From Imbricaverruca yamaguchii (Eukaryota > Arthropoda > Thecostraca > Neoverrucidae), in contig JAOTOL010001641.1 of NCBI GenBank assembly GCA_034440575.1, forward strand, positions 1-64,000: a stretch of DNA of 64,000 nucleotides, in the 5' to 3' direction. A program made the translations under genes and the position numbers. The stretch's first letter is position 1; the number at the start of each line of letters is the position of its first letter. The notes beneath the pieces are model-generated. The model saw only the letters and a list, made by a program, of their open reading frames with translations. It was not told the DNA's origin and ran no database searches. This document shows positions 33,365-63,218 of this stretch, piece by piece.

Positions 33365-34669
33365 CGCACGTACGTATGCACGCACAGAACATACTTGCAT
33401 GAACCTACACTCTGAGCCTATGCTATCCTCTGACATATGCCATCGCATAGCTTCCTGCGCATCCCATGTTGTCTTATGGACGCTGCGTGATCAGTGAAGT
33501 CGTTGCGCCATACAACCCAGATGCATGTTGTCTATCATCGCCCGCACATGCATGACTCCAGACTACTGGCCACTGATAACACTATTCTAATTGGAGAGTG
33601 CTTCAACATTGCGTATGAATGTTCGGCTTTGAACCAATCAAGACCCTTTATTTCGACCTCGACTTCGTGGTATTCGAAAGGTTTGAGCTTCTGCTTGGAG
33701 GCCCAATTTCTGGCTTAGCCACTATTTCTGGTTGCTGGGTGGTATGTCAGACGATTTGTTCATCCCATGCTGTCTTAATGTGGCGTCTGGAAAATTTCGT
33801 GTGCACTTGTAAATACCCACGATCTGCAATCTAGGTGTCGAAAGATATGTGCCATTTTAGTTCAGGGTCTGGCACTGTTTTTAATGATGCTGAAGTAAAA
33901 TGCTATAGTGAACCAACGCAATGACTATCTGGAAGCTTCATAGCCAGCAAATATTGGTCGCTAGTGTCAATTCGAAGTATATCTTAGAGTGGAGTATGTG
34001 TTCTCGTTTAAACTTTTACCATCACCATGTATACAGTCTCTTCGCGGTAAAATGCAGTCTTCAGAAATATGTGGCGACTGTGTAGGTCATTGACCTCTAT
34101 ATATAACTAGACGGCCGACTCACCGCCCGCCGCACGCTCTGCGTCGAGCGAACCGCTCGCTCCCATGCATTTTGTCCCTGGAATGAAATGTCGTAAAATT
34201 GAAAGTTGTGGATATATTTTGATAACAAGCGGTGCAAAATGATGCTGGGTTCATGATGAGCAGGTAGAAACGGGGAAACAACTTGCACAATATTGTAATT
34301 CTTCCTTTGAGGTGTAACTTCTATCATAGTTTCGCCAACCTTGAGCGGTATTCGGCATGTGTACCCCATGTAATTAAGACCCCGGATACTCGATATATAC
34401 CAGCGAAGTAGCGCTTGGAATGTTTGTAGTGGACAGCATATGTGTACTGCGTGTGCACCCTGTAGCCTATCAGGGTCGCTTCAAGGAATTGTCGTAGGAG
34501 AAGGGTATTTGTCTGGGGGCGCCATTTCTTAGGAGGTGCACCATGCGAAAATACCTTAAGGAGTACCTTGGGCCAAAAATTCGTTTAGCAGGGAAGTGGA
34601 ACGTGAACATGAGCACACTGAAGCTTCTGGCTGTAAAATATGAAGGGAGCACTCGAGCCTTTCAGAGGG
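33365..34669. other. no recognisable gene
   Basis: Short frames only. A 25-bp stretch near 34087-34111 (TGACCTCTATATATAACTAG) recurs inverted near 39903-39926, suggesting flanks of an old dispersed element. Confidence 0.4.
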
Positions 34670-41825: not shown

Positions 41826-42664
41826 TCAGTTGGTGACCGAAATAATGTGAAGGACAATGAGGAGCAAGCAGCGCGAGAGGAGACCGTTCAATTGACATCA
41901 GACAGCAGCATCAGACAATTCCAACAGCTGGGTCAAAATCGACACCAAACAACGTTGTCCTACATCGCTTTTGATGTCTTTTTCCAGCCACAAATAATCG
42001 TTAAAAATTCATGAATAATTACACTGGTTGCACGACGCGCTGGAGAATAATAATGAACCGTTCAAAAGGTTACCATACCGCGTCAATTGTACTATATGCA
42101 TCCTTCTTTATATGCGACATGATGCCAATGACCCGAGTAGGTAGCACAAAATTATGTCATAGCACAAAACATCAGAAAGAAAGCCGAAGACATTTCCAGA
42201 CTGAAATACCCGTGCTTCGTCGTCACCTAAGAATGCTTACAGTGAGCCTTACCACTCCAGAAATCACGTCGACGCTCCAGAGCATACCTCAAAGATGAAA
42301 TTAGAATGCGAGGGTGACGACATATTTACACTGCACCACATCTTCGACACAGTGCCTTATTATCACCATGGAGTAGGTTATCATACATGACATAAGCATG
42401 ACCAATGAGAAGATGGCATAGCGTCACCTCATCTCGCCTTGTCCTGCGCTATCACGAGGGACACTGACCGAGCGATGGCTAAATTGTGCGTAATTTGTTA
42501 GAAATAAGTGCATCTCAACTCGCTGGCCACTCATTCCTCCAGAAAACCGAAATCCCTAGGTTCCTGGCAAGGATCTGGAATGCTCTTCATGAGTGAGCCT
42601 GTGCTGCCCATCTGGCAGCACCGAATGTTTCTTCATTGCGTATGGTACTAACATGGCTCAGAAT

Positions 42665-44830
42665 CAGTGTTGGATTTTCCCTTCTCGGTCTTGGATTCGG
42701 AGTGTATAATTTTTTGGCTTGCCAAGGTATGGAGTGTATAATCTTGAGAAGCACTATGTTATGGGGTGTATAATTTCCAGTTTGCAAGATTATGGGGTGT
42801 ATGTTGAAGCACCAAGTAATGGAGCATATACATTTTAAATATAACGAAGTGTATAAATTTTGAAAAATGCAGCGATGTCTCCTGGAATGAAGAATAGAAA
42901 CCCAGGGGCCTCGGTAGCTTAGATGGTGGAGCGTGGGACTCGAATCTCGCGGCCGGCGGCATTTGCAGAGTCCACCCACGACTAATCGGTTTGATATAGG
43001 GTGGCGGCGCTATGCAACCTTGCGGTTGAATGCGTCGCAAAATAACCCGATAATTCTTCTTCCTCAAGAACAAAACGCCTTTAAGTCATTTGTTAGGTTC
43101 TTATCCTAGTGTCTCAGACAACCAGATGGGGTGAACCACACATCGTCGTCTGAAGTCATCCACGTTACGTGAATGACTTATAAGGCAACTTCGTGAGCAA
43201 TGGTAGAGAAAATGATCACAAATGTATACTTAATCGATGTCAACCAAGTTTATATATAAATACCTGCCACTCCTAGCATAGGTACCAACACGCACAACTA
43301 ATACAAATTCACAACATACCTCGAGAGCAGGACGTTCGTGGGGTCTAAAATGGGAGGGTCTAAAATGTTACTTCGGGATATGGGTTTCGGAATATATAAT
43401 GGTTCAAGGAAAGTTATCCTAAAACAATCCGTCTAAAATCTTTTATTCTCTCCACGATGAAATTTTTTTTTTCAAATGAGAAAGCTGGAAAAAAAATATT
43501 GAAGTCAATCCTTATTAATATTAAATGTATTTCAATGCACTTTTTAGTTCATGTCTGGAATGTTTAGTAGAAGCAAGGAATTCCTTGGAAGGATGAAAAG
43601 TGACTAGACGGGCGGGCACATTGCTGCTGTAAAACAGACTATCGTCACGGACGAGCGGAAATTAGCGTCTCATTTCGCGCCATGATTGCTATGAAATACC
43701 AAAAAATGAAAATAAGTTAGAGAAAACTGCCAAGAGAATTACAGGGAACTTATTTCTCAATTAATAATAATCAGGACTGTGGGAAGAAATTAATCATTGG
43801 ATCAGAATGAGGCTTAAAAGAGTGTAGAGGATTAGGTCAACACACGTAAATCTGAATTTGTCCGGAGTGGGGAAACCTCGCGGTCGGAGTGGCATGAATA
43901 CAACTATTCCCGCTTGTTGATGAAATTCGGAAACAATATAAGTCATGAAATCGAAAGAAGGTGAAATTTCTGGTTCTATGGGTCTTCATTTTGGAGCAGT
44001 GTTAGCAGGTTTTAGGAACGTTTTGGTACCATTCAGGCAATTTTCATGGGGAAAATCCTTCCGATATCTTTTATGTATATCGCTCCTGACTGCTTAATAA
44101 TATAAATATGAACGGTTTTATCCATTCAATTTGATGCATAACATATCATTCTCCAAGGAACCAAGAAGAAATGCATTATCCATGGCTTTTCGTGGCAATG
44201 ATTCAAATAGCTCCGGCCGGAGTGGGAGATGGAGAGCGGTGAACTCATTGAATCCAAGAACGCGGTCGGGGGCTGGTGAAGGTGAATTCCTATATTTGGT
44301 TAGCGGAGCGTAGTGTTTTTTTTTATTCAACGAAGGATTTTCTTTAAAGCTCTGCTGTTATCCGGATGGAATTGACTGCGTGTTTGGCTGGAGGTATGAG
44401 AGGTTGTATTATCTGACTATGTAGGTACCTACCTACTTACCTATATCAAATATCTTCGCGGTAATTCGAGACATTGACTTGGATAAACCAAAGCTGTAAG
44501 CTTGTGTTGTGTGACGGGATATCTTCAGATAATACAAGGAGCAGGACATAATAATATTAATTGCTGCGATGTTTTGTCGACAAGCGTAGAAATGAACAAA
44601 ACTGATTGCTTTGCTTTTGTCTGGAAAATCTTGTTTTGTGTTTTTTGAGTGTTTTTTTAAATTCAAAAAACTTTATTTGATAATCCTGAATGATTCTGAA
44701 AGGAATTTGATAAATTGATAACTTACAAAAAAAAAATAATCTAGCATAACTTAGCGAAACCTAATACCTTTGTATGGTTCATGGAGGCAAAATGTGTGTA
44801 AAGCATGTATGGAAAAGTAATAGTGCCCAT
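42665..44830 (+). repeat. dispersed repeat, copy 2 (2.2 kb)
   Basis: This is an inverted partner of 12442-15079, starting CAGTGTTGGATTTTCCC and ending AATAGTGCCCA. Most of its length is over about 90 percent identical by eye, including a block with a GTAGGTACCTACCTACTTACC word and an oligo-T/A stretch. The 520 bp found at 12620-13150 in copy 1 are absent. It lies between the two halves of the transposon-like pseudogene, consistent with insertion into it. It also sits in an intron of the KIAA0232-like gene. Confidence 0.88.
42905..42982 (+). repeat. tRNA-like module inside dispersed repeat copy 2
   Basis: GGGGCCTCGGTAGCTTAGAT with GGTGGAGCG gives an A-box context, and GCAGAGTCCACCC occupies the T-arm position. 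It is nearly identical to the module at 14762-14838 on the opposite strand. No intact cloverleaf is formed. Confidence 0.55.
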
Positions 44831-47181: not shown

Positions 47182-47532
47182 CTGGGGTTGGGGGTAAGGT
47201 GCCATATACTTTGATGAAAGCGTGCTCAGGAAGATTTTAGTTCCTCGGTGAAGCTTTTCGTTTTCGGGAACGTTCCCACCGTCTACAGCATTTAGCCACT
47301 GGAACACCCAGTGAGGAAAGGGAATATTATTATCATATAGTTGCTGCTATTGGGGTCAATGTTGTCTTGTTGATTGCAAAATGTGTGAGCGAAAATATTT
47401 TTGCAGTGACATGTATGACATAGTTTGTAATTATGTGGCCGCCAAGGTAGCGTGATGAGGCTTTCGGTGATTGCACCGGAGGTCATCGACTGAAGCTTCT
47501 TATAACCCTGCTGATTTTCGTAATTCAAGGGT

Positions 47533-47590
47533 ATGGGCGCTGCATGACCACTACAGTCGATGCGCCCCTAAACCCCAATAAACAAACAAA
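47533..47590 (+). mobile_element. tail-only mini-retroposon, 58 bp, 14-bp TSD
   Basis: The insertion holds only the hairpin (GGGCGC ... GCGCCC outer stem, CTGCATGACCACTACAG core), then CTAAACCCCAATAAACAAACAAA. It is flanked by CGTAATTCA(A/G)GGGT at 47519-47532 and 47591-47604, 14 bp with one mismatch. It lies 108 bp upstream of exon B. Confidence 0.88.
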
Positions 47591-47698
47591 CGTAATTCAG
47601 GGGTGGCTACGTTGTGGTGTTGTGTGCTGTCCATCTGTGGTATTTTGGCTCTGAGTTGCTGGCACTGGCACTGACCCTCTGTGCTCTGTGGGTGCCAG

Positions 47699-47946
47699 TG
47701 CGGCCGCGGTGCCGCCGGGCTCCGCGGCTCGGCGGTGTCGGGCACACGCGGGGACGAACTGAAGCGCGCAGAGGTGATCGAATGTCTGCGCTCGGCCTCG
47801 GAGGATCACTGCGGCATCCAGCTGCTGGTGGACCATCTCATCAGCATGCTGAAGCGGCTACCCACTACCGAGCTGGCGACGGCCGGCGACACCATCTGCC
47901 GATCGATAACAGCTGAGCAGCTGCCAACCGAGGACCCGGTCCTCAG
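47699..47946 (+). CDS. KIAA0232: KIAA0232-like, exon B
   Basis: The acceptor CTGTGGGTGCCAG precedes TGCGGC, and the donor CCTCAG|GTCAGT ends the exon in phase 2. The central segment ELKRAEVIECLRSASED, then GIQLLVDHLISMLKRL, matches the second conserved N-terminal block of KIAA0232 as I recall it, including an identical CLRSAS. The rest (LATAGDTICRSITAEQLPTEDPVL) is less conserved. The first 18 codons are Gly/Arg-rich and could be lineage-specific; no alternative in-frame acceptor is evident. The donor at its end is duplicated by a mini-retroposon and by a minisatellite. Confidence 0.75.
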
Positions 47947-47951
47947 GTCAG

Positions 47952-48009
47952 TTGGACGCTGTACAACCACTGCAGTTGATGTGCCCTAAAACCCAAATAA
48001 CTAGCTAAC
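47952..48009 (+). mobile_element. mini-retroposon inserted at the exon B splice donor
   Basis: This 58-bp copy of the hairpin plus AAATAACTAGCTAAC tail starts 5 bases into the intron. It is flanked by perfect 12-bp repeats TCCTCAGGTCAG at 47940-47951 and 48010-48021. The target-site duplication therefore contains the last exon bases and the GT donor, so the donor CAG|GTCAG now exists on both sides of the insertion. Its hairpin core CTGTACAACCACTGCAG retains pairing through a G-U. The second flanking copy is also the start of the first minisatellite unit, so the minisatellite may predate the insertion. Confidence 0.85.
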
Positions 48010-48010
48010 T

Positions 48011-48335
48011 CCTCAGGTCAGTGATGTATCCCTCCTACCATGACACCGACTCCCACCGTGACACCATCTCCCGACTGACGACCCGGTCCTCAGGTCAGTA
48101 ATGTACCCCTCCTACCATGACACTGACTCCCACCGTGACACCATCTCCCGACTGACGACCCGGTCCTCAGGTCAGTGATGTACCCCTCCTACCATGACAC
48201 TGACTCCCACCGTGATACCATTTCCCGACCTACAACCCGGTCCTCAGGTCAGTGATGCACCCCTCCTACTATGACACCGACTCCTACCGTGATACCATCT
48301 CTCGACCGACGACCCGGTCCTCAGGTCAATGATGT
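48011..48335. repeat. 77-bp minisatellite carrying the exon B splice donor
   Basis: Units start at 48011, 48088, 48165, 48242 and 48319, exactly 77 bp apart. Each begins CCTCAGGTCAGTGATG (last unit GGTCAATG) and ends GACGACCCGGT or a near variant. The unit therefore contains a copy of the exon B end (GACCCGGTCCTCAG) and its GTCAGT donor. Identity between units is about 90 percent or higher. 77 is not a multiple of three, so use of a downstream donor would also shift the frame. Confidence 0.93.
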
Positions 48336-48353
48336 ACCCCTCGTACCACCAAA

Positions 48354-48490
48354 GTTGGGAAGCTTACTTTCCGGGTTTGTGGCCGGAGTGCATGCCGACT
48401 TCTGTCGGAGTACATTTTCGTTGGCGTATTATATTTTTATATATCGAATATGTTTGCTGGTAACAGACAGAAGAAGCCTATGTATTCAGT
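48354..48490 (+). repeat. short dispersed repeat, copy B
   Basis: Partner of 21017-21145 in the same orientation, sharing the GAGTACATTTTCGT core and the following TAACAGACAGAAGAAGC / TAACTGATTGGAGAAGC segment. It lies in intron B, directly after the donor minisatellite. Confidence 0.55.
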
Positions 48491-48916
48491 ACGTAATATG
48501 CACAATAAAGGCTCGTTTCTTGGGAGGGGGCTCCTCTTGTATTCATAACTTGGATATCATTCAGGAAAATGGGAACATGGGTTCCATGATCGAAGTTATG
48601 CTATTTTAGCTCGTCGAGCGTACAAATTGCTTACCTTTTCTTAAACACAGGATGAGGTCCAATAGGCTGCAACACTCAGTGGGGATCCAGTGGTTAATAT
48701 CCTTTTATGGTAGTTTAATTGTGAAGCCACAGGGAACCTTTGGTGTTTAGGAAACTGCTAGTCAAAATTGAACACTGAATGTCCACGACTTGGTCTGTGG
48801 CCGCACACGTCACTGTGATGAATCATACATGCTGAATGGTAATTGTATTAACGGACATGTTACCATGAAAGGCTAATTTTCTTCCTTATACCACTAGCAA
48901 CATACACATACTCCAA

Positions 48917-48975
48917 CAAATTGGCGCTGTATGACCAACGCAGTCGATGCGCCCGTAAGCCAAAATAACCAACCA
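48917..48975 (+). mobile_element. tail-only mini-retroposon, 59 bp, 11-bp TSD
   Basis: Hairpin GGCGC ... GCGCC with core CTGTATGACCAACGCAG, then CGTAAGCCAAAATAACCAACCA. Flanks ACATAC(T/G)CCAA at 48906-48916 and 48976-48986 form an 11-bp target-site duplication with one mismatch. It lies in intron B, in sense orientation. Confidence 0.82.
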
Positions 48976-48986
48976 ACATACGCCAA

Positions 48987-50255
48987 TATAACAGCATTAC
49001 CAATGCATTTCTCGCAAATCCATTCGACATATATTGCTTCGCTACTATCGGGAAGCTTTACCCGAACCAGGGGCGCAGTCAGGGGTCGTCCCCATCCTCT
49101 TAGCGAGCTCTATTTCATGACATTATGTCGATAGGACCCCTCTTTAAAAAGGAACTCCTGGCTGCGTCCCTTCCAAAGTTGTATCGCCTGAAACCCAGAC
49201 CCGTCACAGGTGTCTACATATGAATGACTAAAGTGAAGGTGAACTTAATGAGTGATATCGTAAGTCTAAATGTATAGTCGAAGAAATAATTGCTCCAGAA
49301 ATAGCTATCAGTATATGGGCCGTACACTACACGTCATAAATGATCCACTTCAGGTTGCTAAATATCAAATTTCATGGTTGCACTATACACATGTTCCGAT
49401 ATTATCTACAACCAGTTCTTTTTGCCATATGTGTCCCCAGTCTCTCATTAGATCGATTTACATGACATATGTTTCAGGAATGCAATTATCGTTTTATATG
49501 CATGCACTAATGGAAATTGGAACGTATGAATACTCCAAGACCGTAAAGCACGAAGTAGCCTTAACGTGCTAACTATTTATTACCCAAACTAAGCATGCAT
49601 GGTTGGAAGATTGCAATGAATGCTGGCGACTGCAGACAAGTGTCGTTTTTAATTGCTTTTCCACAACTAACAGATAAAGCCATTTATAACAGGTGGAGCA
49701 TGAGATAGGGCCGGCCAATTTAAATTATTGTTATTTGGGTTTAAGGTTGTCTCGGCCAAAATACATAAATATTTAGAGCCTATTGCTGGCTTAGGTGATG
49801 CTAAACGTACCTTGCTAACATGCGTTTTGCTTGTTCAGTGTTCAGGGTTGGTCAATAGTTCCTACCTGCGGAGAAATTGTCTCCCAACTCGCTACCCCTT
49901 GATCAGGCCAGATTTGATAACCGCATGGCTATTGGATACAATGTCAGACCACCAGTACTATGGCTGTGTGACTGATGAATACCTGTGAGGGAATTTTGGT
50001 CCAAAATAATAATTGCACGATAAAACGATATGAGTTGCAAAATGCGAGTACGTGCTATTTGAACAAAGCAGCACCATATCCTGGAATAAATTAGTTGTCT
50101 AGCCATCAGATTCACATACGGTTTCACCACATAAATGTCGCGTGTCATGACTGTATTGGATATATTTCTGCACAGTGGTCCCTTGTCCCTTATGAACAGC
50201 TTGTTATCTTTCTGTTGATACCTATATGCAAACATTGCAATGAGTTCTTTTCAAC
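48987..50255. other. intron B, no recognisable gene
   Basis: AT-rich sequence with short frames. A pair of imperfect inverted words, GGGGCGCAGTCAGGGG near 49066 and CCTGGCTGCGTCCCTTCC near 49148, could be ends of a small decayed transposon. Nothing else is supported. Confidence 0.35.
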
Positions 50256-50745
50256 ATCAGCACCCCCCCCCGACGAGGCATCACCTTTACGTAGTGGGGG
50301 GATTGCGTGCCTCCAGGATCCGGCGGTCAGACCGCCAGGCAGCCGGGGAGAGGTCAAACGAAGAGTGCCTCACTCGTCCTTCCATCCATACGCTCCCATT
50401 CCAGTGCCCATCTCGTCCCAATCCATGTCCTTCACCTGGCTCTGCAACACCAACTATCCTAGCTATGAGGAGACAGGGCAATTTCCCCGGTCCTGCCCAC
50501 CAGCTCAGTTTTATCGGGGTAGCCGCGCCCCCTCGGCCCGTCCCCCGGGGTTGACGGAGTCCTGGAGGTTGAGGTCCCCGTCGCACGGTGCTAGTTGTGA
50601 CGGGGGACCAACACACCTCTTTGGTCCTGATATCCCGGAGGGGCGGGGGGGCCCGTGGGGCCCCACACGGGCCAAGTGGCTGGTCGCCTCGGGACGGGGG
50701 TCTGGGACACTTCCCAGTGCCAGACCACCTGCTCCGGCGGACGTA

Positions 50746-51495
50746 ACATGTTTTCCCCTGACCCGCGAGTCCTCATTTTTCGAGGGAAAACACAGTCTCT
50801 TGGTTCTTTGTCCCCCTTTCATAGACGTAACGGATGCAACCGGTTTGGAAAAGTTGTCCGTTGTGAGAAGTTGAAGGATGGAGGGTTGGAGGTGGAGTTT
50901 GCTGTGGCTGAGGAAGCGGAGAGAGCGTTGTCGATGACTAGGCTTGTTTATAGTGTGAGAAATGGTGGCAAGAAGGTAGACGAAATTATTCAAATGTACG
51001 TAGAACCCCATAAAACCAAGAACTCGTCGAGAGGTATCATCAATTGTTTTGACTTGAGGGACGTACCGGAGGAAGAGATTGATGAATTTGGAGTGATTGG
51101 AGCGAGAAAGTTGAAAGTGAGGAGAGGTGCAAAGATGGTCACAACCAACAACACCGTACTAACATTTAACACGAGCGATCTTCCTGGTGAGATTCGTGGT
51201 TCCTATTTTCTTTCCCAACTCTGAGGTGTTTTAAATGCCAGAAGTTCGGTCATACAAGCCAGTTTTGTCGTAATCGCCCTGCTTGTAGCAAGTGCGCCTC
51301 CCAAGAGCACGGAACTGAGCATTGCTCCTCCGAGACCACCCGTTGCGCAAACTGTGGCCCAGTACAGGACCCCCACTCGTCGTATGACAGGACTTGCCCG
51401 ATCTACCTGAAGGAGAAGGAAATTATTGCTATTAAACACACACAAAAAGTAACCTTCCGCGAGGCCAGAGATGTGTACACTCACTTCAGTACACA
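50746..51495 (+). pseudogene. LINE2 ORF1 (CCHC knuckles), one frameshift
   Basis: Reading starts near MFSPDPRVLIF (50747) and gives SLGSLSPFHRRNGCNRFG, GLEVEFAVAEEAERAL, KNSSRGIINCFDLRDVP and NNTVLTFNTSDLPGEI. A frameshift near 51215 precedes the zinc knuckles CFKCQKFGHTSQFC, CSKCASQEHGTEHC and CANCG...HSSYDRTC, then KEKEIIAIKHTQKVTFREARD. All knuckle Cys/His residues are present, unlike LINE1. A Pro-rich C-terminal part continues in shifting frames to about 52276. Confidence 0.85.
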
Positions 51496-52336
51496 CTCAC
51501 TCCAGAATCACCTACGCATTAAAAGCCAAAAGTCATACCGTGATCCCACAACATATTCAGCCCGACAAGGTTTCTGAGCTCATCTCCCAAATGACAGCCC
51601 TACTTCGTTCCTTTGGAGTGCCCCTTACGATACCACCAAGTAACAGGCAGCCAACCCAAGACTGCGTTGAGACCACCGAAATGCCACCCACCATAAGTAA
51701 TCCTGCACATGACATAACCGACACGGCAGAGCGCGTTGCTTCGTCGCCAAGGGCCCAGGAAGTCGCAGCTACCCCACCCGTTACAGAGCGAGCTCAAGAA
51801 GAGTGACATCGTGTTCAGCGGACTAAGAAGCCCCCTAAGACCTCCACTAACCTCGAATCCTTACCCGCCATACCCAACGAACCCACTCATATCCAGCCTT
51901 CCAAAACCACGCCAGCTCCCCCACCCCCACCACAACCAACCATCTCAGATCCAAAGCTTGGACATCCTATGGTGCATGTGCGCCCTGGAGCCCCAGATTT
52001 ATGAGCTCAGGGTCGCATCGCCCGACATGTCCCGACCCCTCGACCGCCAAGCATGAGGGCCAGCGCCCACTGGCGACACCTCACTCCACGCCATTACCCG
52101 CAGCGGCCAGGAGACCGCCGGAGACACCTTCCCGTCGAACCCTGCACCGCCCAATATCCTCCCAATCCACAAATTGCGCTATGAAGCGTGCTCTTCCCGG
52201 TGCGGTGTCGCCAAGTGAGTTTGGGAGCCCGCGTTCACGCCCACGAAGCCCAGACCCCCCGACTACAGGACCATGACTTAGTCACTCTTGGCCTTTTACG
52301 CTCTTAGCTTAGGACTTCTTTCACTTACTGACAAAC

Positions 52337-52440
52337 GAGTAATATTCTACAGTGGAACTGTAGAGGTGTGAGAACTAGCATTAACGAATTCCTTCCAGTC
52401 CGATGTCGAGGAAAGACTCGGCGAGTGCTCCAAAGGATTG
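52337..52440 (+). pseudogene. LINE2 endonuclease stub with internal deletion
   Basis: The endonuclease starts normally (ILQWNCRGVRTSINEF, motif QWNCRG at 52350) but runs within about 70 bp into the linker that precedes TPRRVPVPWW (52509). In LINE1 these two points are about 820 bp apart, against 160 bp here. About 660 bp encoding GDFN, SDH and the rest of the nuclease are missing. Confidence 0.82.
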
Positions 52441-54422
52441 GTTTCCATAGAGATGTTTGCGACCACAACGTTACAAAGTGCTCGGCAATATATTCCTCGT
52501 TCGTCGGGCACGCCACGCCGTGTACCAGTCCCCTGGTGGTCTGATAAATGCCGAGATGCATTGCGTGCTAGAAAGAAGGCATTCCGTATTTTCAATCGTG
52601 ACAGCTGCATGACGAATCTCGTAGCTTTCCGCAAGGCAAGGGCTCACGTGAGGCGCACAATTGCCGACTCCAAGCGACAATCCTGGAAAGCTTATGTCAA
52701 CACGTTCAACCGTTCCACCTCACTGTCATCGGTGTGGTGCCGCATCAAAAGTATCAGACAAACTTACCGGTACTCCACTCCCCACATTGCACATAAATGG
52801 ACAAGATATTATTAATCCGAAGGATGTCGCAAACGAGATTGGATGGGCCTTCTTCGAACGATCGAAAAATAAAAACAGCCGACGTTTCTCGGAGTACAAA
52901 GCCCGGTGCGAAGCACTAACGCTTGATTTTACAACAACAGATTCTATCCATTACAACAGTCCATTTTCTATTTCCGAACTGACTGCTGCTGTAGCAGTCA
53001 GTGCCCTTAGGAACGTAGCAGAAGGACCCGACACCTTACACAATGATATTATTAAACATCTGCCGATTACAGCTTTAAACACACTTCTGCAAGTGTTCAA
53101 CAGAATGTGGGAAAGGTTAACATTTCCATTGACATGGCGGAGGGCGCTTGTCGTCCCTATCTGCAAGCCAAACAAAACTGGAAAGGACCCACTTCATTAT
53201 CGACCCATATCATGGACCTGTTCTCGAACATTTCCATTGACATGGCGTAGGGCGCTTGTCGTCCCTATCTGCAAGCCAAACAAAACTGGAAAGGACCCAC
53301 TTCATTATCGACCCATATCATGGACCTGTTCTCTTTGCAAATTGTTTGAAAAATGGTGAACTTGCGACTCATGTGGTTTTTAGAACACAACCATGTACTC
53401 ACCTCGTTACAGAGTGGCTTTCGCAGACATCGTAGCACATTTTACCATATTTTAGCTCTCGATTGCGTTGTACGCCGGAGTTTCATGAAACGATGTCATA
53501 CCGCTGCCATATTTTTTGACGTTGACAGCGCTTATGATACCGCATGGCGTCATGGTATCCTCATGAAGTTGCACCAAATAGGCATAAGAGGCCCGATGGG
53601 GTTTTTCTTGACGAATTGTTTAACAAACAGGACATTTCGGGTCAGAATAGGTGGCTACCTCTCTGACACCTTCCAACTTCCAACAGATTGATGGGGTTCC
53701 TGAGGGAAGTATATTGAGTGTGACTCTGTTCGCCATTGCTATAGATGGTGTGGGTGATGCACTGCTAACATCGGTAGGACGAGCGCTATTCGTGGATGAT
53801 TTTACAGTATGGTTCTCGTACGGTGCGGACGGTGGAAAGCCAGCTCCATTTAACTGTAGTGAAATTGATGGAGTGGTGTGATAGAACTGGGTTCACTTTA
53901 TCCACCTCAAAGACTACCGCTGTTCACTTCTGTCGGAAACGCCGTTGCACAAACCCAACGATAAGGATGAACGGTCACCTCATACCTTTCGGATCTGCAG
54001 TCAAGTTTCTGGGTGTGTGGATGGATCGCCATGTTACGTATAAAACTCACACCACTGACCTTATCAACAAATGTACAAAAGATCTCCAGGTAATCAGCAC
54101 CGTTTCTATGTGTTCATATGGAGCTGACGGATCAGTTTTACTTGTCATGTACCGATCGCTCGTGCGTTCTAAAATTGACTATGTATCCTTTATTTATGAT
54201 GAAGCGAGTGCCACATCCAAGCGCTGTCTTCATGTGATCCACAATCCAACCCTTCGCATCGTTACTGGAGCCTTCCGCACCTCACCGGCTGCTAGTGTAA
54301 TGGTAGAAGTAGACGAGCCACCTCTTGCACTACGCCGTAAGTTATTGGGCGCGAGATATGCATGCAAAGTTGCTCAAAACCGGAACCATCCAGCCTATCG
54401 GTGGATTTTCTCAGGGACGTGA
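52441..54422 (+). pseudogene. LINE2 reverse transcriptase
   Basis: Blocks are VPVPWWSDKCRDALRARKKAF, AEGPDTLHNDIIKHLP, WRRALVVPICKPNKTGKDP, DYRPIS-like HYRPISWTCS, SGFRRHRSTFYHI, FFDVDSAYDT, GVPEGSIL (usual GVPQG, Gln to Glu) and FVDDF (53789). Both catalytic Asp are present, unlike LINE1. Frame changes occur near 52780, 53350, 53690 and 53850. A 108-bp in-frame tandem duplication lies at 53120-53335. Confidence 0.88.
53120..53335 (+). repeat. in-frame 108-bp tandem duplication in LINE2 RT
   Basis: 53120-53227 and 53228-53335 are almost identical (one difference, GCGG/GCGT in an Arg codon). They encode the same 36 residues, from TFPLTWRRALVVP through HYRPISWTCS. The frame is preserved across both copies. 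LINE1 has the block once. Confidence 0.93.
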
Positions 54423-54659
54423 AGTGCACGTCACATTACTCAGCGTGGATTACTGTTTTCCACTCGTATGTCCCCGATTCTTCGAGAATGTAATATCCGG
54501 CCGCGTTCCGTAGCACGTGTAATCATTCCGAGCACTCCCCCTTAGCATGTTGTCCCAGTGAAAACTGACATGACTCTAACCTGCTCAAAGAAAGGGCAGG
54601 TAAGCCCGGAGGAACTCCGCATGTTAGCATTGGAAAAAAATACACGAATATCACGACTT

Positions 54660-55500
54660 TTCACGCATTTACACAGACGGCTCCAATGTGGCCTCTGCTG
54701 TCGGGTGTGCTTTCGTAAGTAGACAATGTGTTCGATCTTTTTGTTTACCCACGCAAACATCGATTTTTACTGCCGAACTGTATGCCATTCTGCAAGCCCT
54801 CTATTTTATACAGAAAGACCGGTCCACAAAACACGTGGTTTTCACAGACTCTTTGATCAGTCTCCTGGCACTGAACACCTTTAACCTGGATAACCGACTT
54901 GTTAGGAAGATTACCAAAGTCGTAAAATCCCTAGATGACATCGGCAGAAATAATATCGTATTCTGTTGGATTCCCAACCGTGTTGGACTCGCGGGAAACG
55001 AAGCTGCCGACATTACCGCCAAACACACCATTGGTAATGGCGGTGTGGTCCGTCTACGGCTCTCTCCAAGGGATCTATACCCAACTATGTTATCAAATAT
55101 ACGGTCAGAATGGCAACGAACCTGGAATTTCAACTGTAGTAAGCTCAGAGTTTTAAAACCGACACTAGGAAAGTGGCTGTCCTCTCACCGAACCAAACGC
55201 CGGGAAGAAGTAATACTCTGCCGATTAAGAATAGGTCATGCATTCGCAACACACAGTTACATGCTTACCGGTGACGACCGACCTCTATGTCCGCGCTGCT
55301 CTTACCCGCTTACCGTCTACCATGTTTTAGTTGGCTGTACAATATTTGATCCTCTACGACGCCAGATTTTAGGGCGGTTGAATACCGACTCCTCTTTACG
55401 TATGCTTATAGGGAACGACTCTGAGGTCGTGGCGTCTGGGAATATTTTTACGTTCATTCTACAAGCTCGCCTTGACGTGATATGCCGTGAAGATAGATAG
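54660..55500 (+). CDS. LINE2 RNase H domain and Cys/His module, open
   Basis: From YTDGSNVASAVG (54669) the frame is open for about 275 codons to a stop at 55500. RNase H carboxylates are TDGS, TAELYAIL, FTDSLISL and NEAADITA, all present, with VFCWIPNRVGLAG between. Then come LCRLRIGHAFATHSYMLTG, CPRC and YHVLVGCTIF. It is the only long LINE domain in this window without a break, though separated from the reverse transcriptase by frame changes. Confidence 0.85.
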
Positions 55501-55549
55501 CAAGATATGATAGCAGCACCGTAGAGTGATTAAAATTTAGTTATAGGCG

Positions 55550-55661
55550 CAAAGTGACCCTTGATGTCGATGCGCCCCTAAACTCCAATCCACCACCACC
55601 AGTTATGAGCGCAAAATTACAATAGATGTCGACGCACCCCTAAACTCCAATCCACCACCAA
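55550..55661 (+). ncRNA. LINE2 double 3' hairpin tail
   Basis: Two tandem copies of the terminal hairpin occur: TTATAGGCGC...GATGCGCCCCTAAACTCCAATCC(ACC)n at 55550-55600 and TTATGAGCGC...GACGCACCCCTAAACTCCAATCC(ACC)n at 55601-55661. The distal copy is 61 bp, about the size of the free mini-retroposons. It may be one of them inserted into the tail, or a product of template jumping. Confidence 0.78.
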
Positions 55662-55684
55662 CAAAATCAGCACCAAATAATCAG

Positions 55685-56065
55685 ATAACTGCTTCCCTTG
55701 CTTGCCAAGAAAGCTGAATTAATTTGCATGGTGACTATGGAAATGTTTGACTTAGTTTGTTTCGCTTTGATTAATTTACATGTTTAGACCTTCAGTTCGA
55801 ATTCTTCGTGATATGGCTTCATTCTTGCCCGGCAAGGCACCAGCTCTCATAGACATCGCCAGTTGCAGACATGACGCATTGTCGCAGATTAAAAACCTCA
55901 CAAGCCAGGCTATTGGCGTCACATGGCCTAGTCGCCGCGCCCTTAAAAGGCGACTCACCTCAAACACACGTGGTGAATGTGTATCGGTTTGTGCAGGTAC
56001 GAGGCAGCGTTTCCACCTCTCAGCGGTCGCAGCTCGCCTAGTGTCATTCCGCTGACCTTCTTCAG
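55685..56065. other. end of intron B, no recognised gene
   Basis: The frames here (55780-56055) run into exon C but precede its acceptor, TGACCTTCTTCAG ending at 56065. I see no element. Confidence 0.45.
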
Positions 56066-57130
56066 CAAGATGTCTGCGAAGCCGAGCGGTGCGACACTGA
56101 CAGGCTGGCTGCCGGTTGGCCACCGGGAGGCTGCGCTGCCGTCCGCAGCTGACTGGCCTGCATCACTCGACCTCAGTGTGTTGCTGCAGCCGGCGGCGGC
56201 CTGCCACCGGCTGTCGGCGCTTCAGCTGACCGCATCACCACTGGAGCTGACCGCTCTGCCTGCCGACCCGCCGCCACCCAAGCCGCCCGAACCGTCAGCC
56301 GACACACACTTTCAGCCGATCCGACGCGTCAGTGGCGGCGACTGCCAGCCGCCGGCCACCTTCGACGCCCGTCTGTACACTCGCTCCGACAGCGGCGGCC
56401 TCTACCTGGAGGACGAGCCGGCTCCTGGCATCGACGACCGACCGCAAAAGTACATGGTCTATCAGGAGCCGGTGGCCGGCTCCTCCACCTCCGTGGCCGT
56501 CGTCTCTACCGCGGCGAGTTTCGCGCCAAAGTTCAAGCTGCGCGCCAACGAGAAGTACTGTCAGACGGACGAGGCGGAGCCGGCGGACGCGGCCCGCGAC
56601 CGAGACCTGCTCCAAATATTGGTTTCCGGAGAGCAGGCGATCGTGTCGCGCGGCGCGGCGTTGACTGTGGACGACGACGTCGAGGACGACTCGAGCTACG
56701 AGGTGCTCTCCAGCCTGCAGGCGACGCTCAACAACATCTACGAAGACGGCAGCGAGTCGGACACGTCGGCCGCCGAGCGTGAGCGGCGCCGGTCGGCGTT
56801 CGCGCGCGTGAGCCGCGCGCCGACTGGCCACCGTCCGCTGTACCTGCGCGGCGGTGGCGCCGACTCGTTGCTGGCGGCTGTATACACTGGCGGCGTGTGG
56901 TCGCCGGTGGCCGGCTCGTCAGCCGAGCCCGACCACCGACCACTGTATGCTCGCCAGCCGTGCTCGACGGCGCCGGCCGGGTACGCCGAGCTGTGCCATC
57001 TCAGCTCGGGCCGCATCAGCGGCGCCGTTTACCGGCAGGGACCCACCGAGTACCCGGCGCTGCGCTACCAGCTGGCTGGCCGCGACCTGCCCGAAGTCAC
57101 CTTCTGTCAGCTCGCCAACAACGCCACCAG
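56066..57130 (+). CDS. KIAA0232: KIAA0232-like, exon C (acidic, low-complexity)
   Basis: The acceptor CTTCTTCAG precedes CAAGATGTCTGCG; the first base completes the Ser codon begun at 47945-47946. The 355 codons have strong G/C at third positions. Notable stretches are a Pro-rich PPPPKPPEPS, THFQPIRRVSGG, KYMVYQEPVAG, FAPKFKLRANEKYCQTDE, an acidic DDDVEDDSSYEVLSSLQATL, three H-R-P-L-Y motifs (TGHRPLYLR, PDHRPLYAR, and related SGAVYRQG), and FCQLANNATR at the donor ACCAG|GTCAGT (phase 2). HF(R/Q)PI and GHR-x-L-type motifs also occur in KIAA0232 as I recall it. The product is probably largely disordered. The minus-strand frame over this exon is a compositional shadow. Confidence 0.75.
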
Positions 57131-57642
57131 GTCAGTGGTGCACTCGTACATGAGGCCCGTCCTGGGTGGCACTGTCGGAGAGCGTGTTTTGCCACGTCGG
57201 TCATTGCTCGTTTACAAAATCTATGTCATTTTGGTGGCGTGTAATCTTCTGTCGGGTTGTTTTTAATGCTGAATAATTGAAGCTCATCGGCGAGTTGGCA
57301 TGGTCATTCCATGCCAATTTAATTGGTGGACAATATAATTTAACACCCCATCTCATCCCGTCAGATGTTGTTTCCATGTTTCAAGAGTGAATGTGTATAT
57401 GGCCCCGGATGCGATTCGAAGCTGGCCTCAGAACATCGGTTTGTCCTTTATGGCGACATTAAAATATGACGTACCACGAATTATGTTTTTAATCTGAAAT
57501 GTCTCCGGAATGTGGGCGGATGAGTTGGATCCGAAAACTGTTGCGGCGTCGCAAGATAGAGTACTTTGACGTGAATGTATCAGGGTATTTTTGCAATGTT
57601 TTCAATAACTTGTATCCAAAGTATGGCGTACAAATTATATTT

Positions 57643-57701
57643 CGATGGTGCTACATGACCAATGTAGTCGATGCGCCATAAAGCCCTAATAACTAACTAA
57701 T
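57643..57701 (+). mobile_element. tail-only mini-retroposon, 59 bp, 11-bp TSD
   Basis: The hairpin has outer stem GGTGC/GCGCC and a perfect 6-bp inner stem CTACAT-GACCA-ATGTAG, then CATAAAGCCCTAATAACTAACTAA. Perfect 11-bp flanks AAATTATATTT lie at 57632-57642 and 57702-57712. Its sequence is almost identical to the copy at 58844. Confidence 0.9.
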
Positions 57702-58843
57702 AAATTATATTTGTGAAGAACGTCCCAATCGATGTTCTTTATACGTAGATTTTCGAATGTTGGGCTTGATGAACAATGATCCTAGGATCATTGTTAAATA
57801 GAGTGAGATCTCAGCTCCAGCAATGTGCAAAAAAATCCGTGAGCACTGACCCGCGGGTGTGATGAACACTGACGTGGAGGTGCGGCGCAGCGGCGGTCGA
57901 CGTCGGGGAGACGGGCAACCGCCTCAAGCTTAGCTGCTTCCCATTCTGGGTAGGGTCCTCAAACATTGGACATTTAAGCCGTTTGATCTAATTTAGCCTA
58001 TGAAATCCCACTATACAGTCCCTGCACTTTCTCTCCAATGTTTACGTTTTAACTGGAAGGTTGTTCATCACCTTGTGTGGTGTGCGACCCGAAATGTCGG
58101 AGACCGTACACTCGAGTTTCTCCGCCTGAACGAGTGATAGCTCCTTGAACCTGTCGTCTTTCTGGTAGCCGACTAGACGCATTTTCTGGGTGTGATGGCC
58201 GTTCGGTCGATGTGTTTTCCTTTGATGTAACTGAACTGGATTCCCGGTTGGAAGATGCACAAACTAACTTTAAACCAGAATCATGTTTCAGAAAAGGAGT
58301 GAAATGATCTCAATTATCGTGACATTTAATTGGTACAGCAAAATGTATTGCTCATGAAGTATTTATTTACATTTTCGCTTCCAATGGCAGACAAGGGGAA
58401 GAAGTAATTACAACAGTTGGCCCACACTAGCTTGTTCGCTGGTGGTGGCAAGGATTGAACTTCCCATACTTTTGAGCAGCTGACCCCCAACCGCCCCGAT
58501 GTTGCTCAAGTTTATCATGGAGTTGTAACGTTCACTGCAAGTATTTGGACGAGAACGTATTTTGCCAGTACCTCCTCCCCAACTTATTTTGATAATATTC
58601 CATCCTGACTGGTCGGACAGTTTATCAGTAACTTTGCAAACATATATGCCAATTATCAAAGAACCACTGCAGCAGTTACATCTGCTATAATATAACGTGT
58701 CTAAATACTCAAAGCAGTGTGCAGATTTCAGGTAGTTACGTGAGTGGAACATCTCCCATTATTTACCAGTGCATCAGTGGAAATTTATCATCCAACTCTT
58801 ATGTTTATGTGTCTTCGATACGCATTCTTGACTTTCACATTTT

Positions 58844-58899
58844 GGACGCTACATGACCAATGTAGTCGATGCACCCTAAAGCCCTAATAACTAGCTAAC
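58844..58899 (+). mobile_element. tail-only mini-retroposon, about 56 bp
   Basis: GGACGCTACATGACCAATGTAG with the same perfect inner stem as 57643, followed by CACCCTAAAGCCCTAATAACTAGCTAAC. I do not see a convincing target-site duplication, so the limits are approximate. Confidence 0.75.
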
Positions 58900-59358
58900 A
58901 ACCCTTTTACAACATAGCATATGGTAACCATTAATAGTAATCAACAACGTGTGTATCCATTCACCCAGTGTAGACATCCAGCAGAACTCGAGCATGTGCC
59001 GTGGGCTTTAAAAGCCGGTTCGATTTGGGCAACTGCAGACGGGCGCGTGTAGTGAGTCGCCTCACAGGGTCCTGTGCCGTGACAGCTGGCGAAAAAGTGA
59101 GGAAATCAGCAGCGTCCCTACTGCCTTTGATCCCTGCCAGTGCCTCCGCCAGAACGGCGTAACATTTATGAGCGGCGACCCTAACGTGATTTGACCGAGC
59201 CTGCTCTGGCTTCGTCTCGCAATGTCGGCGCTTGTATGGAAAATCTGCTGTTGCTGGTAGCCATGTACTGACCTCGCCTCACAGTGCGACCTCCAGGTCC
59301 GAGGAGCCGTTGTGGACTGCCACCCGGACCTGACCTGACCCGGCCCGACCCTCCCCAG

Positions 59359-60202
59359 TGCGTCCGCTAAGGAGGATCTGCTGTCAGCGGATGAGGCGGC
59401 TGTCTGGGAATGTGACTCTGAGCGCGATCGCAGCTCTCAAGAGCCGAGCATGTGCGACGACGCTACCTGGCAGACGGCAATGGACGCGTGCGTCTGGGAG
59501 ACGAATGACGACCACACGGCCGACATGCTGCTCTGGGAGGCCGGTGGCGATCGCCAGCCGCTCGGCGACACTGTGCTCTGGGAGGCGCGTGACCACTCAC
59601 GCGACAAGTCCATCGATAAGTCTATCTGGGAGGAGCGTGTCGGTGCCGGCCGTCGGCCGTCGGCCGATAAGTGTGTCTGGGAGCCACTCGACGACTTGCC
59701 AGAGCAGGCTGGAGACACCGAGGTGTGGAAGGTGATGGAGAGCGCGGCAAGGCCCGATATATATGTCGACGAGGTGTGGAGGTCTGGGGATGGTCCAACG
59801 CAGCGCAACCAGGTCGGTGACGACAATGTCTGGGAGTCGGGCGGCGTGCTGCGGCCGAGCGAGGCGACGGAGGAGAGCCGCTGGCAGGCACGGGACCAGC
59901 CGCTGCCGGCCGACAAGCTGGTCAACGACGCCGTGTGGGAGGCGCCGAGCACCGTGGTCGGCCGCGACAAGACGGCGGCCCGCCACCTGTGGCCGCCGCC
60001 GGCGCATCCGCTCAAGCTGGATAAGTCGATCGACAAGACGCTGTGGGACTCGCTGGACGACGCGTCGCAGCACGACAGGTCGGCCGACGAGGCCCTGGAG
60101 GAGTTGCGCGCCGGCGCGTTACCGCCCCGCCGAGCATCCACCGAGCGCAGTCTGTGGAGCTCGCGCTCCAAGCTGGACGACACGCTCTGGGAATCCGGCA
60201 CC

Positions 60203-60234
<32 letters not shown>

Positions 60235-60529
60235 CTGGAAGCCGGTGGCGGCCGTGTGGCTGTCGGGCGACGCGCCCTCTTGGGACGGTGACCTGGTGCG
60301 GCCCGCCGAGCACATCTGGCGGCGCGGTGAGCCCACCTCAGCTTGGGCGGGGCCGGCATCGCCCGAGGGGGCCGCCACTCAGGAGAAGGTGTGCCGCCTG
60401 CTGTGGCAGCTGGGCGGTGACGACGTGCTAACGCAGACGGGCCTCTACCCGGCCGACGAGCTCGCCGGACGTGCCAGGAGCTGGGAGTTTATTGACGAGA
60501 ACAACGTCAAAAACAAGATAGATAAAAAC
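59359..60529 (+). CDS. KIAA0232: KIAA0232-like, exon D (Trp-acidic repeats)
   Basis: The acceptor CCTCCCCAG precedes TGCGTCC; the first base completes the Ser codon opened in exon C. The 390 codons end at donor AAAAC|GTGAGT in phase 0. The exon is dominated by about 15 degenerate repeats of roughly 20 residues centred on a hydrophobic residue, Trp and usually Glu or Asp: AAVWECDSE, DACVWETND, MLLWEAGG, TVLWEARD, KSIWEERV, KCVWEPLD, DEVWRSGD, DNVWESGG, DAVWEAPS, KTLWDSLD and DTLWESGT. An EPEPEPEPEP run follows. It is probably disordered with many short binding motifs. Third-position G/C is high, consistent with exons A-C. The long minus-strand frames over it are shadows. Confidence 0.75.
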
Positions 60530-61878
60530 GTGAGTTGTGTCATGGTGAGAACGCTTCGGGTGGAGCTGCGGTGTGGTGACAGAATGTTCCCTGCCGCTTT
60601 CATTTTGTTCACTGCTTTGACCATTTTTAACGTTGTTAATTTAATTTTGCTTGCTATCTGGAGATAAATGAATAGGGATTCACCACCGTTTTCGAAGTCA
60701 CTGTATTGCAGATGAGATTACGAGTCTCAGCTGAATTGCCTTACTTGGTGTTATGTGGGTGAGAATGGCAACAAGCCTGGAATTCGATGTGTAGTAAGCT
60801 GAGGGTTTTAAAGTCGGAACTAGGACAGTAGCGATCCTTACATCGAATCAAATGACTGGAAGACGAAATAATTTGCCGATTGAGGATAGATCATACCTTC
60901 GCGACACATAGCTACATACCGGCTGATGGTGACCAGCCTTTATGCCCACACTTCTCTGGCCCGCTATCACGTTTTGGTAGGTCCTGTAGTGTTGGAACGG
61001 CTATGACGCAAGATTTTAAGATGGCTGAACGCCGACACTTCTTTATGTACGCTAATAGGGAGTGAGGTCGTGGCGTCAGATAACATGTTTACCTACCTCC
61101 GACATGCAGGCTTTGGGGTGATTGCCGCCGCCCGTGATGATTAACAGCAGGCAACTATACCAACATTGTAGATTGTAATGCAGTTATGTGCTCAAAATGA
61201 CCCTGGTAGCCGGTAGCACGCCCATAAACTCCAGCTCATCATCATACTTCGTGCTGGAAACTCTTTACAGACAGCACTGTAATGTGTGGTAACTTGGTCA
61301 TCGAAACCTGGCCTATATTCCTATACGCCATTGCCGTACTGCCTCGGCCACGGGAACAGAGCTGAATAGTATTGTGTATCCGTGTGTGCCGGTGTGCCCA
61401 GAGGACCCTGTGTATCTTGTGTTTCAGTTTCTGTTCGCGGAACTTACATGCTCTACAGCCCACATGTCTAAGCCAACATTTAAGCATGAAGTGCAGGAAC
61501 AGCCATTGTGCCGAATTGTATCCATTTGCTGATTCATTTAGTAACCCATCTCGGTTTTTCTGCGCTACTCTTTTGTACTCTTTCTGCCTACCATTTGGTT
61601 CCATCTAAAAACAGCACAACACAGCATAACGCCACAATGACATGATGGAACGCCAGCTGATCACTGGAGAAGTTGTTTCTTGTGTGTTGTTTGGTACGGG
61701 TGTGTCCACAAGTTCGTCCACAAATTTGATTGAATTCGACATTATTAGCAGCTCTTAAGTCGAATGGTGCGTGCGTGATGCCCTGGTCGATGCTCTTGAA
61801 TGCGATCAGATCACCAGCTGTGGGTGTTGTGACGGCGGCGGGTGGTCTCCCAGCTAACGGTCGCCTGACTTTGCTCAG
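60530..61878 (+). other. intron D of the KIAA0232-like gene
   Basis: A 1.35-kb intron holding a truncated LINE (60753-61245). The remainder shows no recognisable feature. The acceptor is TTTGCTCAG. Confidence 0.65.
60753..61245 (+). mobile_element. 5'-truncated LINE fragment (LINE4)
   Basis: This matches the last 740 bp of LINE2 with gaps: AGAATGGCAAC(A/G)A(G/A)CCTGGAAT, a CSKLRVLK-like reading, then CRLRIDHTFATHSYIPADGDQPLCP. It ends in the family hairpin (TATGTGCTC...GCACGCCCATAAACTCC) with a CATCATCAT tail at 61183-61245. ACTT(G/C)GTG(T/C)T at 60743-60752 and 61246-61255 may be an imperfect target-site duplication. Stops and deletions make it inactive. It lies in sense in intron D. Confidence 0.8.
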
Positions 61879-62090
61879 GACGCCGACGACTCGGGTCCGC
61901 TGGCGTCGGAGCTGGCCAATGAGGTGGCGGGCTGGCGCATGCTGCCGGCACTACGTCAACTCTCCGAGAGCCTCGGTCTGACCGAGAGACATCCACTGCC
62001 TGATGGTGTGGCGCTCAAGGCGTGGACGCTGGAGGAGCAGTGGCGTCGCGACGATGGTCCGCCCAAGGCCTCTCGAGACCGTCGGTCTAG
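61879..62090 (+). CDS. KIAA0232: KIAA0232-like, exon E
   Basis: The acceptor GACTTTGCTCAG precedes GACGCC (phase 0, matching exon D). The 70 complete codons read DADDSGPLASELANEVAG, WRMLPALRQLSESLGL, ERHPLPDGVALKAWTLEEQW, then RDDGPPKASRDRRS, ending at TCTAG|GTCAGT in phase 2. Codon use matches the other exons. I recognise no domain in it. The next exon is not visible in the remaining 1.9 kb, so the gene continues beyond the window. Confidence 0.7.
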
Positions 62091-62600
62091 GTCAGTCCTT
62101 CGTCCCGAGATCATGGATCCAGATCCATCCCTTGCGTCAAGACCGTCGGTTCAGATGAATTATTATAGGGATTGTGGGTGTCAGTCCAATGAACTGCGTG
62201 TCCAGAGCAGTCAGTCCCAAAGGCTGTTCGTCCAGCTAGGTCTCATGAATCACGGGTCCAGGCCACTCCAGTGAACTGCGAGTCCAGGTCAGTCCCAATC
62301 TGGTATCGTTAGCCCAGGTGAATCCCAAGGAATGCCTTGCCAGGTTATTCCAATGTTCGGCGGGTTCATGATGGTTCTAGAAGCGATTGATTCAGGTTGG
62401 TCCCATGATGGCGTGTCAAAGCCCATCATGTAAACTATGTTCAGTCATGTTCCATGGATCGCGGGTCCGGGTTGTTCTTAGAAGCTGCAGGTCTAGGTCA
62501 CCATCAGGTGCTGCGTGCCCTGCGAAGTCCCATACATCGCGAGTCCGGGTCAGTCCTATAAGGAGTGGGCCCAAGTGAGTCCCAACTGGACCCGTGTCTC
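62091..62600. repeat. degenerate tandem repeat after the exon E donor
   Basis: About ten diverged copies of a roughly 40-bp phrase, approximately GCGGGTCCAGGTCAGTCCCA, fill the first 500 bp of the intron. Examples start near 62087, 62192, 62248, 62285, 62462 and 62536. The phrase resembles the exon E junction itself (TCTAGGTCAGTCC), as at the exon B donor, but is much older. Confidence 0.6.
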
Positions 62601-63149
62601 CAATTCAGTACGAGCGTGCCCTATATTGGTCTGTGTGTACAGCTGCAATGCTGGTTGTAGTGTTGGAAGGTGCTCTGCGGGATTTCTGTAGAGGTTTTTC
62701 CACCTGCTGCTGCATATGCTCGCAAAAGCTCGCTTCCTATAATGCGTATGGCTAAGTACTGCTGAGGCGGCTGGCACAAAACAAAATTGTCCACAGTGGT
62801 CAAAGATTGTGGCATTCGCCTCCACCGTGCGAAGAGATGCAACTTATAGTAGCCACATTCTCAGCATGCTGGAGCATGGTTGGCTAGCACCCTTTACCTG
62901 AATTCTCATCATCTAACACTGTATCTTCGTCAGGAAAGTACCTCGTTTTGTTTGCCGAAACAATGAAATGGTGCCGCTTAGCAGAATCAGAAACAAAGGC
63001 ATGCTCGCAATGTGATGTCACAACATTTTCCCTCTCCAAATCCAACATTACAAAGCATGAGCTCGGCCCCGACTCGGACGTTCTTTCCTGCTTCGGCATG
63101 GACCTGGCCATTGTATCGTGATAGGAGGCACGGTTTAATTCGTATTAAA
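62601..63149. other. no recognisable gene
   Basis: Likely intron of the KIAA0232-like gene. Short frames on both strands have no recognised domain or junctions. Confidence 0.4.
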
Positions 63150-63157
63150 TGTTTACC

Positions 63158-63218
63158 GTTCTGGGCGTTGCATGGCCTCTGCAGTCGATGCGCCTCTAAA
63201 CCCCCAATGACCAACCAC
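63158..63218 (+). mobile_element. tail-only mini-retroposon, 61 bp, 8-bp TSD
   Basis: TGGGCG with core TTGCATGGCCTCTGCAG and GATGCGCCTCTAAACCCCCAATGACCAACCA. Flanks TGTTTACC at 63150-63157 and 63219-63226 form an 8-bp target-site duplication. The core stem is kept by a G-U pair. Confidence 0.8.

Follow-up and report, generated by a model that had tools for sequence, protein, structure and literature searches.

Hairpin-only inserts derived from the 3' ends of LINEs in the genome of Imbricaverruca yamaguchii

The stretch of DNA analysed here, hereafter the window, comprises 64,000 nt of the thecostracan arthropod Imbricaverruca yamaguchii (assembly GCA_034440575.1, contig JAOTOL010001641.1, positions 1 to 64,000 of the forward strand). 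It holds long interspersed elements (LINEs) that end in a 3' hairpin followed by a short tandem tail, together with short inserts that consist of this hairpin and tail alone and are the subject of the present study. Coordinates and strand refer to the window, and identifiers beginning with L denote loci sampled from the genome, mostly from small contigs. Endonuclease, reverse transcriptase (RT) and RNase H domains were detected in the LINEs of the window, whose ends and hairpins are located as follows:

22188-23815, plus strand: LINE remains with RT and RNase H matches, ending in a hairpin at 23756
25291-31376, plus strand: long LINE with ORF1, endonuclease, RT and RNase H; hairpin at 31322
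50631-55600, plus strand: long LINE with RNase H; hairpin at 55545
55601-55660, plus strand: second hairpin-tail unit in tandem after the LINE hairpin
60758-61250, plus strand: LINE end of about 0.5 kb with a diverged hairpin at 61188, under the profile cut-off, and a CATCAT tail

The doubling of the hairpin-tail unit at 55545-55660, with the copies 62 bp apart, could stem from insertion into the tail, from a jump of the template or from duplication of the DNA. The CATCAT-tailed LINE ends (61188 and L097) resemble CTATACTGGTCGATGCGCC, which a microsatellite primer of the barnacle Neoverruca carries next to (ATC)10 (PMC4159855).

The stems of the hairpin, GGGCGC/GCGCCC (lower) and TGAC/GTCG (inner), are conserved in short inserts and LINEs alike. 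Over 12 aligned rows, 89.7% of cells are paired, a value reached in 76 of 500 shuffles, and the covariation score, with two compensatory cells, was equalled by 23 of 500 shuffles. Covariation is thus weak, and the pairing makes the hairpin structure plausible, short of proof. Scanning both strands of the window with a hairpin profile gave 14 places above 10 bits (best score in the reversed sequence, 5.3), 12 of which were the rows from which the profile had been built; of the remaining two, the one at 47131 (11.9 bits) is doubtful. All 14 lie on the plus strand, whereas hairpin cores are balanced between strands genome-wide (8435 vs 8225). A scan of viral contigs returned no loci, and a scan of a genome-contig collection one bacterial match only.

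Eight short copies were delineated in the window, most of them flanked by target-site duplications (TSDs):

6550-6594, plus strand: 45 bp, starting within the 5' arm; TSD 6539-6549 / 6595-6605, 11 bp (p=0.007)
33475-33523, plus strand: 49 bp with a short tail; 10-bp perfect TSD 33465-33474 / 33524-33533 (p=0.007)
47533-47590, plus strand: 58 bp; TSD 47519-47532 / 47591-47604, 14 bp with one mismatch (p=0.0048)
47953-48009, plus strand: 57 bp, beside a 77-bp tandem array; TSD 47940-47952 / 48010-48022, 13 bp (p=0.0002)
48917-48975, plus strand: 59 bp; 11-bp TSD with one mismatch (p=0.0385)
57643-57701, plus strand: 59 bp; 11-bp TSD 57632-57642 / 57702-57712 (p=0.0048)
about 58840-58903, plus strand: copy similar to the 57643 insert (93% over 54 bp), no significant TSD (p=0.70)
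63158-63218, plus strand: 61 bp; 8-bp perfect TSD (p=0.11, weak by itself)

The p-values refer to 6,000 random window positions, with tandem arrays and known hairpins excluded. A TSD is present in seven of the eight copies, one of the seven being weak: six reach a score of at least 8, as compared to 7 for the insert at 63158 and 5 for the copy at 58840, and the maximum was 7 in 56 control pairs that combined the 5' flank of one insert with the 3' flank of another. The same procedure revealed no TSD at the hairpins of four window LINE ends and of a doubtful place at 32600. All six inserts described in the initial annotation were recovered, with TSDs matching to within one base, and the copies at 33475 and 58840, which had been overlooked and are both among the 14 profile matches, are added here. 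The insert at 6550 was correctly recognized along with its 11-bp TSD, but is 45 bp long, the beginning of the hairpin being absent; L051, a second copy of this locus, carries the same insert. The 47533 insert is two edits away from the LINE end of L055.

To locate the 5' ends across the genome, 91 copies were picked by the 3' core of the hairpin alone, and the 5' copy of the TSD was allowed anywhere within ~420 nt; as a control, 3' flanks were swapped between loci, with one random partner each. These copies lie among the matches listed, on small contigs (C6-C151, 20-59 kb where shown). A TSD score of at least 10 was obtained for 44 of the 91. Counting from the hairpin base, 35 of these copies start at -10 to +7, three deeper in the hairpin and six upstream, as compared to 0, 2 and 6 in the control, so that the deeper starts do not exceed the control as a group. 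The 35 divide into 16 at -2 to +1, eight at -10 to -3 and 11 at +2 to +7, with none in any of these bins in the control. Across the bins -2 to +1, -10 to -3, +2 to +7, deeper and upstream, the counts were 18, 9, 12, 6 and 11 at a score of at least 9 (control 0, 0, 1, 2 and 10) and 14, 8, 8, 3 and 6 at a score of at least 11 (control 0, 0, 0, 1 and 2). Samples selected by the hairpin profile miss copies without the 5' half, which make up 17 of the 91 exact cores, while the 91-copy test includes them all. In 76 profile-selected copies, TSD-defined starts lay near the hairpin base in 32 cases and upstream in five (control 0 and 1). A second sample of 40 copies yielded TSDs with scores of at least 9 in 24, three of which are by eye second copies of a locus (L138, L161, L162), as compared to 3 of 200 swapped controls; the mean insert length was 57.2 bp (standard deviation 2.4). 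Thus, the target-site duplications, the uniform size and the 5' end at the hairpin base, all reported in the initial annotation for the window, recur in the genome samples.

An earlier profile-based count gave TSD scores of at least 9 in 48 of 94 copies (control, 4.4% of 564 windows), but three of these were artefacts of tandem hairpins and one was a duplicated locus, and the 44 inserts left after their removal were used for analysis of flanking bases and tails. Inserted bases equal those of the LINE in 23 of 26 cases at -1, 10 of 18 at -2, 2 of 10 at -3, 4 of 7 at -4 and 2 of 5 at -5. In the second sample, the LINE bases T, A, T, T and G at -1 to -5 occur in 32, 25, 19, 8 and 8 of the 40 copies, respectively. 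The edge of the inserts is 0-3 nt beyond the hairpin base. TSD length varies from 9 to 18 bp (18 being the search maximum), and the duplications are located behind a repeat tail that is itself variable.

Empty sites can be read directly from the surrounding sequence. For the 47953 insert, the empty site is visible in units of the adjacent 77-bp array (48010-48348). Moreover, three short inserts (L021, L047 and L102) lie inside LINE reading frames, and the protein match becomes stronger once the insert is excised together with one TSD: from two segments of 1e-32 and 8e-13 to a single segment of 1e-50 for L047, from 5e-32 to 3e-36 for L102 and from 3e-23 to 1e-26 for L021.

The 11-base 3' core of the hairpin, GTCGATGCGCC, has 8,435 + 8,225 = 16,660 exact copies in the 767-Mb genome, as compared to 75 + 80 = 155 for the reversed pattern, and the intact hairpin, GGGCGCTNNATGACC, has 10,708 (control 4). 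The T that precedes the hairpin in LINEs at -1 is found in 9,648 of these 10,708, whereas the GTTAT present upstream in LINEs is found in just 1,398. Among 13 LINE-attached copies that had not been assigned by GTTAT, 10 carry GTTAT and two more GTTGT. We therefore infer from these counts that roughly 80-87% of intact hairpins would have no LINE sequence upstream. In the sample of 76, 46 copies were classed as short (TSD score of at least 8), 14 as LINE-attached, and 16 were assigned to neither class; the second sample excluded places already sampled, LINE-attached ones included, and is uninformative on the LINE share.

To identify the parents, 53 full-tail short inserts with TSD scores of at least 9 were compared with 34 LINE ends, a list including L109, L117 and L121, which were picked by GTTAT alone and showed no LINE sequence directly upstream or a doubtful context; none of the three is a partner of an identical insert. 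Over 46 nt, 13 of the 53 are identical to a LINE 3' end, 27 are within two edits and 38 within four. The partners of the identical inserts are L124 (four), L084 (three), L112 (three), L059, L030 and L111 (one each), and since L059 and L124 represent one family, five LINE families are covered. The families of L030, L124, L084 and L111 are separated by 6-9 edits; the L112 type, compared only via L109, differs by 12-14 edits. LINE coding sequence is found upstream for all five families: in L035, L059 and L124 and likewise in L056, L083 and L119, with which L030 has ~24 nt only of upstream sequence in common; in L112 with L116 and L118; and farther upstream in L084 with its relative L082 and in L111 with its relative L113. 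Identity to five LINE families argues that short inserts were made repeatedly and do not descend as one lineage, contrary to the single family of retroposons proposed in the initial annotation. A separate lineage had also been considered on the basis of hairpin columns 15-18, which read T[GA][CT][AG] in all eight short copies and are A-rich in the LINEs of the window, and was refuted by LINE families elsewhere in the genome that have T-type hairpins identical to short inserts. Identity of the 3' end with that of a LINE and variable-length TSDs enclosing element and tail are both as in a LINE-mobilised retroposon.

Thus, RNase H-bearing LINEs with a 3' hairpin appear to insert repeatedly just their last ~57 nt, and on balance we favour a template whose end usually lies 0-3 nt beyond the hairpin base and which is probably a protected 3' fragment of the RNA. 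Of the two possibilities envisaged in the initial annotation, a defined mobile RNA or an RT stop at the hairpin, a simple stop does not fit, since most inserts hold the whole hairpin, and an RT stalled on reaching it would yield the tail and little else. The end of the template or a stop of copying therefore lies just beyond the hairpin. Mechanistically, the LINE protein may bind to the 3' hairpin, while the remaining RNA would disappear through trimming or cleavage as far as the protected hairpin; the resulting ~57-nt fragment would then serve as template for insertion of hairpin and short tandem tail via target-primed reverse transcription. Stringent-type LINE proteins are described to bind the 3' stem-loop via the region between endonuclease and RT (PMC4176376). 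Occasional extra trimming would generate the inserts of 31-45 bp, in which a portion of the 5' arm is missing and, as a rule, the tail too. A full tail is present in 29 of the 32 short inserts starting at or before +1, but in 3 of the 12 starting at +2 or later (p=5e-5), the latter class being 12 copies in all and the 49-nt tail cut-off having been set after inspection; since loss of the 5' arm is usually paired with loss of the tail, RNA trimmed at both ends is favoured.

Several points weigh against a protected fragment, beginning with the small second class and the cut-off just mentioned. The T at -3 in 19 of the 40 copies of the second sample means that the edge is not one single base, and L036 starts inside the hairpin and nevertheless has a normal tail and a 14-bp perfect TSD. 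As many as 15 of the 53 short inserts are more than four edits away from every sampled LINE end; their parents may lie outside the sample, or they may be old copies. In addition, 33 full-tail inserts differ on average by 2.73 edits from the nearest other short insert, as compared to 3.45 from the nearest LINE end. Lastly, the fragment as an RNA species is a prediction from genomic sequence.

Runs of C replace the usual AACT-type tail in several shorter inserts of 37-45 bp (L002, L022, L033 and L039). In the insert at L094 460, an inverted piece of the element's own stem (TTTAGGGCGC) lies within the tail, as after snap-back of complementary DNA. In L101, two hairpins are joined head to tail, apparently within one pair of 9-bp TSDs; a jump between short templates would be expected to give such a dimer, although tandem duplication of DNA would have the same appearance. 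End-to-end template jumping by the R2 enzyme is cited in a review (PMC2881922).

The main rival is abortive reverse transcription, that is, RT would copy tail and hairpin of a full-length LINE RNA and fall off, or jump to the target, just past the unwound hairpin, because the protein is bound there. This alternative requires no separate RNA, accords with the same 5' peak in several LINE families and explains L036 at least as well, and we regard it as possible but less probable than the protected fragment. It leaves unexplained why the tail, too, is usually missing from inserts without the 5' arm. Some longer products would also be expected, yet the 400 nt upstream hold six starts vs six in the control at a TSD score of at least 10, and six vs two at a score of at least 11, where four of the six cases (L069, L074, L087 and L104) match local repeats and have, at the hairpin base, a further match resembling a TSD.

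It is improbable that the short copies are a minimal short interspersed element (SINE) with source genes of its own, transcribed from flanking promoters. Their mutual closeness, noted above, would speak for it, as would L079 and L102, which are one edit apart and eight from a LINE end, and L021 and the window copy at 47954, three edits apart and seven and ten from LINE ends. However, short inserts with sequences identical to LINE ends were found for five families, and a head derived from tRNA, 7SL or 5S RNA, with an RNA polymerase III promoter, is lacking, as the inserts start at the hairpin base. In line with the earlier statement that no such promoter is visible, no tRNA was found in the window, and an Rfam search at E<=1 over 47400-49100, a stretch holding three inserts, gave no match; an A-box or B-box reading of the insert was judged by eye and dropped. 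A lineage of source copies of their own is likewise not supported by this identity; some subfamilies have no LINE partner in the sample. SINEs with a LINE-type 3' stem-loop, as described in work on the UnaL2 and ZfL2 LINEs, have the hairpin recognized by the LINE protein and the tail in common with the present inserts, which differ in having neither a head nor a body and in stemming from several lineages (PMC4176376, PMC3747384, PMC5135761).

Ordinary random 5' truncation of LINEs is very unlikely to account for the inserts. 5'-truncated copies, which according to a review arise by incomplete reverse transcription, likewise carry the LINE 3' end, a repeat tail and TSDs (PMC2881922), and truncated LINE ends do exist in the window (60758 and 22188) and beyond: L123, from a set chosen for GTTAT, is 109 bp long with a 13-bp TSD, and similarity of L084 to L082 and of L111 to L113 stops ~670-730 bp upstream. 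Instead of the scattered lengths that are their hallmark, the inserts cluster tightly in size at the hairpin base and outnumber LINE-attached hairpins (46 vs 14 of the 76 sampled copies), with 35 TSD-defined ends in 18 nt vs six, equal to the control, in ~400 nt. This refutes truncation as sole explanation; a smooth length spectrum, named beforehand as the outcome that would overturn the initial annotation, was not seen in the genome samples. A short DNA transposon, that is a miniature inverted-repeat transposable element, or an artefact of duplicated segments is scarcely credible: the hairpin is an inverted repeat and duplicated loci exist (L051 and window 6550; by eye L129/L138, L160/L161 and L140/L162), yet duplicates are few and TSDs of 9-18 bp lie behind the variable tail, not with fixed length at the ends of the terminal inverted repeat.

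Compared with other short retroposons, the SIDER and TSIDER elements of trypanosomatids far exceed 57 bp. They are also non-autonomous, TSIDER1 being described as related to the ingi clade (PMC3820030, PMC2323293, PMC11520807), but differ by a 79-bp signature that retroposons of trypanosomatids have in common (PMC2323293). Ruka, a tick SINE, is likewise an abundant short arthropod retroposon, but is described as ~180-195 bp long with an RNA polymerase III promoter and a tRNA-like fold (PMC3160391). In the literature searched, which mostly excludes subscription papers, we found no report of hairpin-only LINE inserts.

Thousands of near-uniform inserts suggest that a short end piece of the RNA is regularly inserted by LINEs instead of the whole. 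This indicates that, in vivo, ~57 nt of hairpin and tail suffice for LINE insertion, probably thousands of times and for several LINE families at once, and bears on two open questions: the minimal RNA required by a LINE, and the origin of SINEs. More tentatively, several LINE families could yield a stable, protein-protected ~57-nt 3' fragment starting 0-3 nt before the hairpin, which, judged by copy number, would be the principal substrate for integration by the LINE machinery, a minimal natural insertion template and a possible stage from which SINEs originate by promoter gain. A large retroposition load may be missed if repeat annotation skips matches so short.

The window contains further repeats. 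Two arrays of ~310-bp tandem repeats (9059-11488 and 16632-19286), by eye inverted, surround ~5 kb, resembling a foldback element with tandem-repeat arms. A pair of 1.8-kb inverted repeats (13287-15079 and 42665-44441) is 96% identical, with one copy located between these two arrays and the other beside a minus-strand LINE fragment (42254-42658). Finally, the 7-bp repeat ACATCAG forms a 1.46-kb array at 3-1461.

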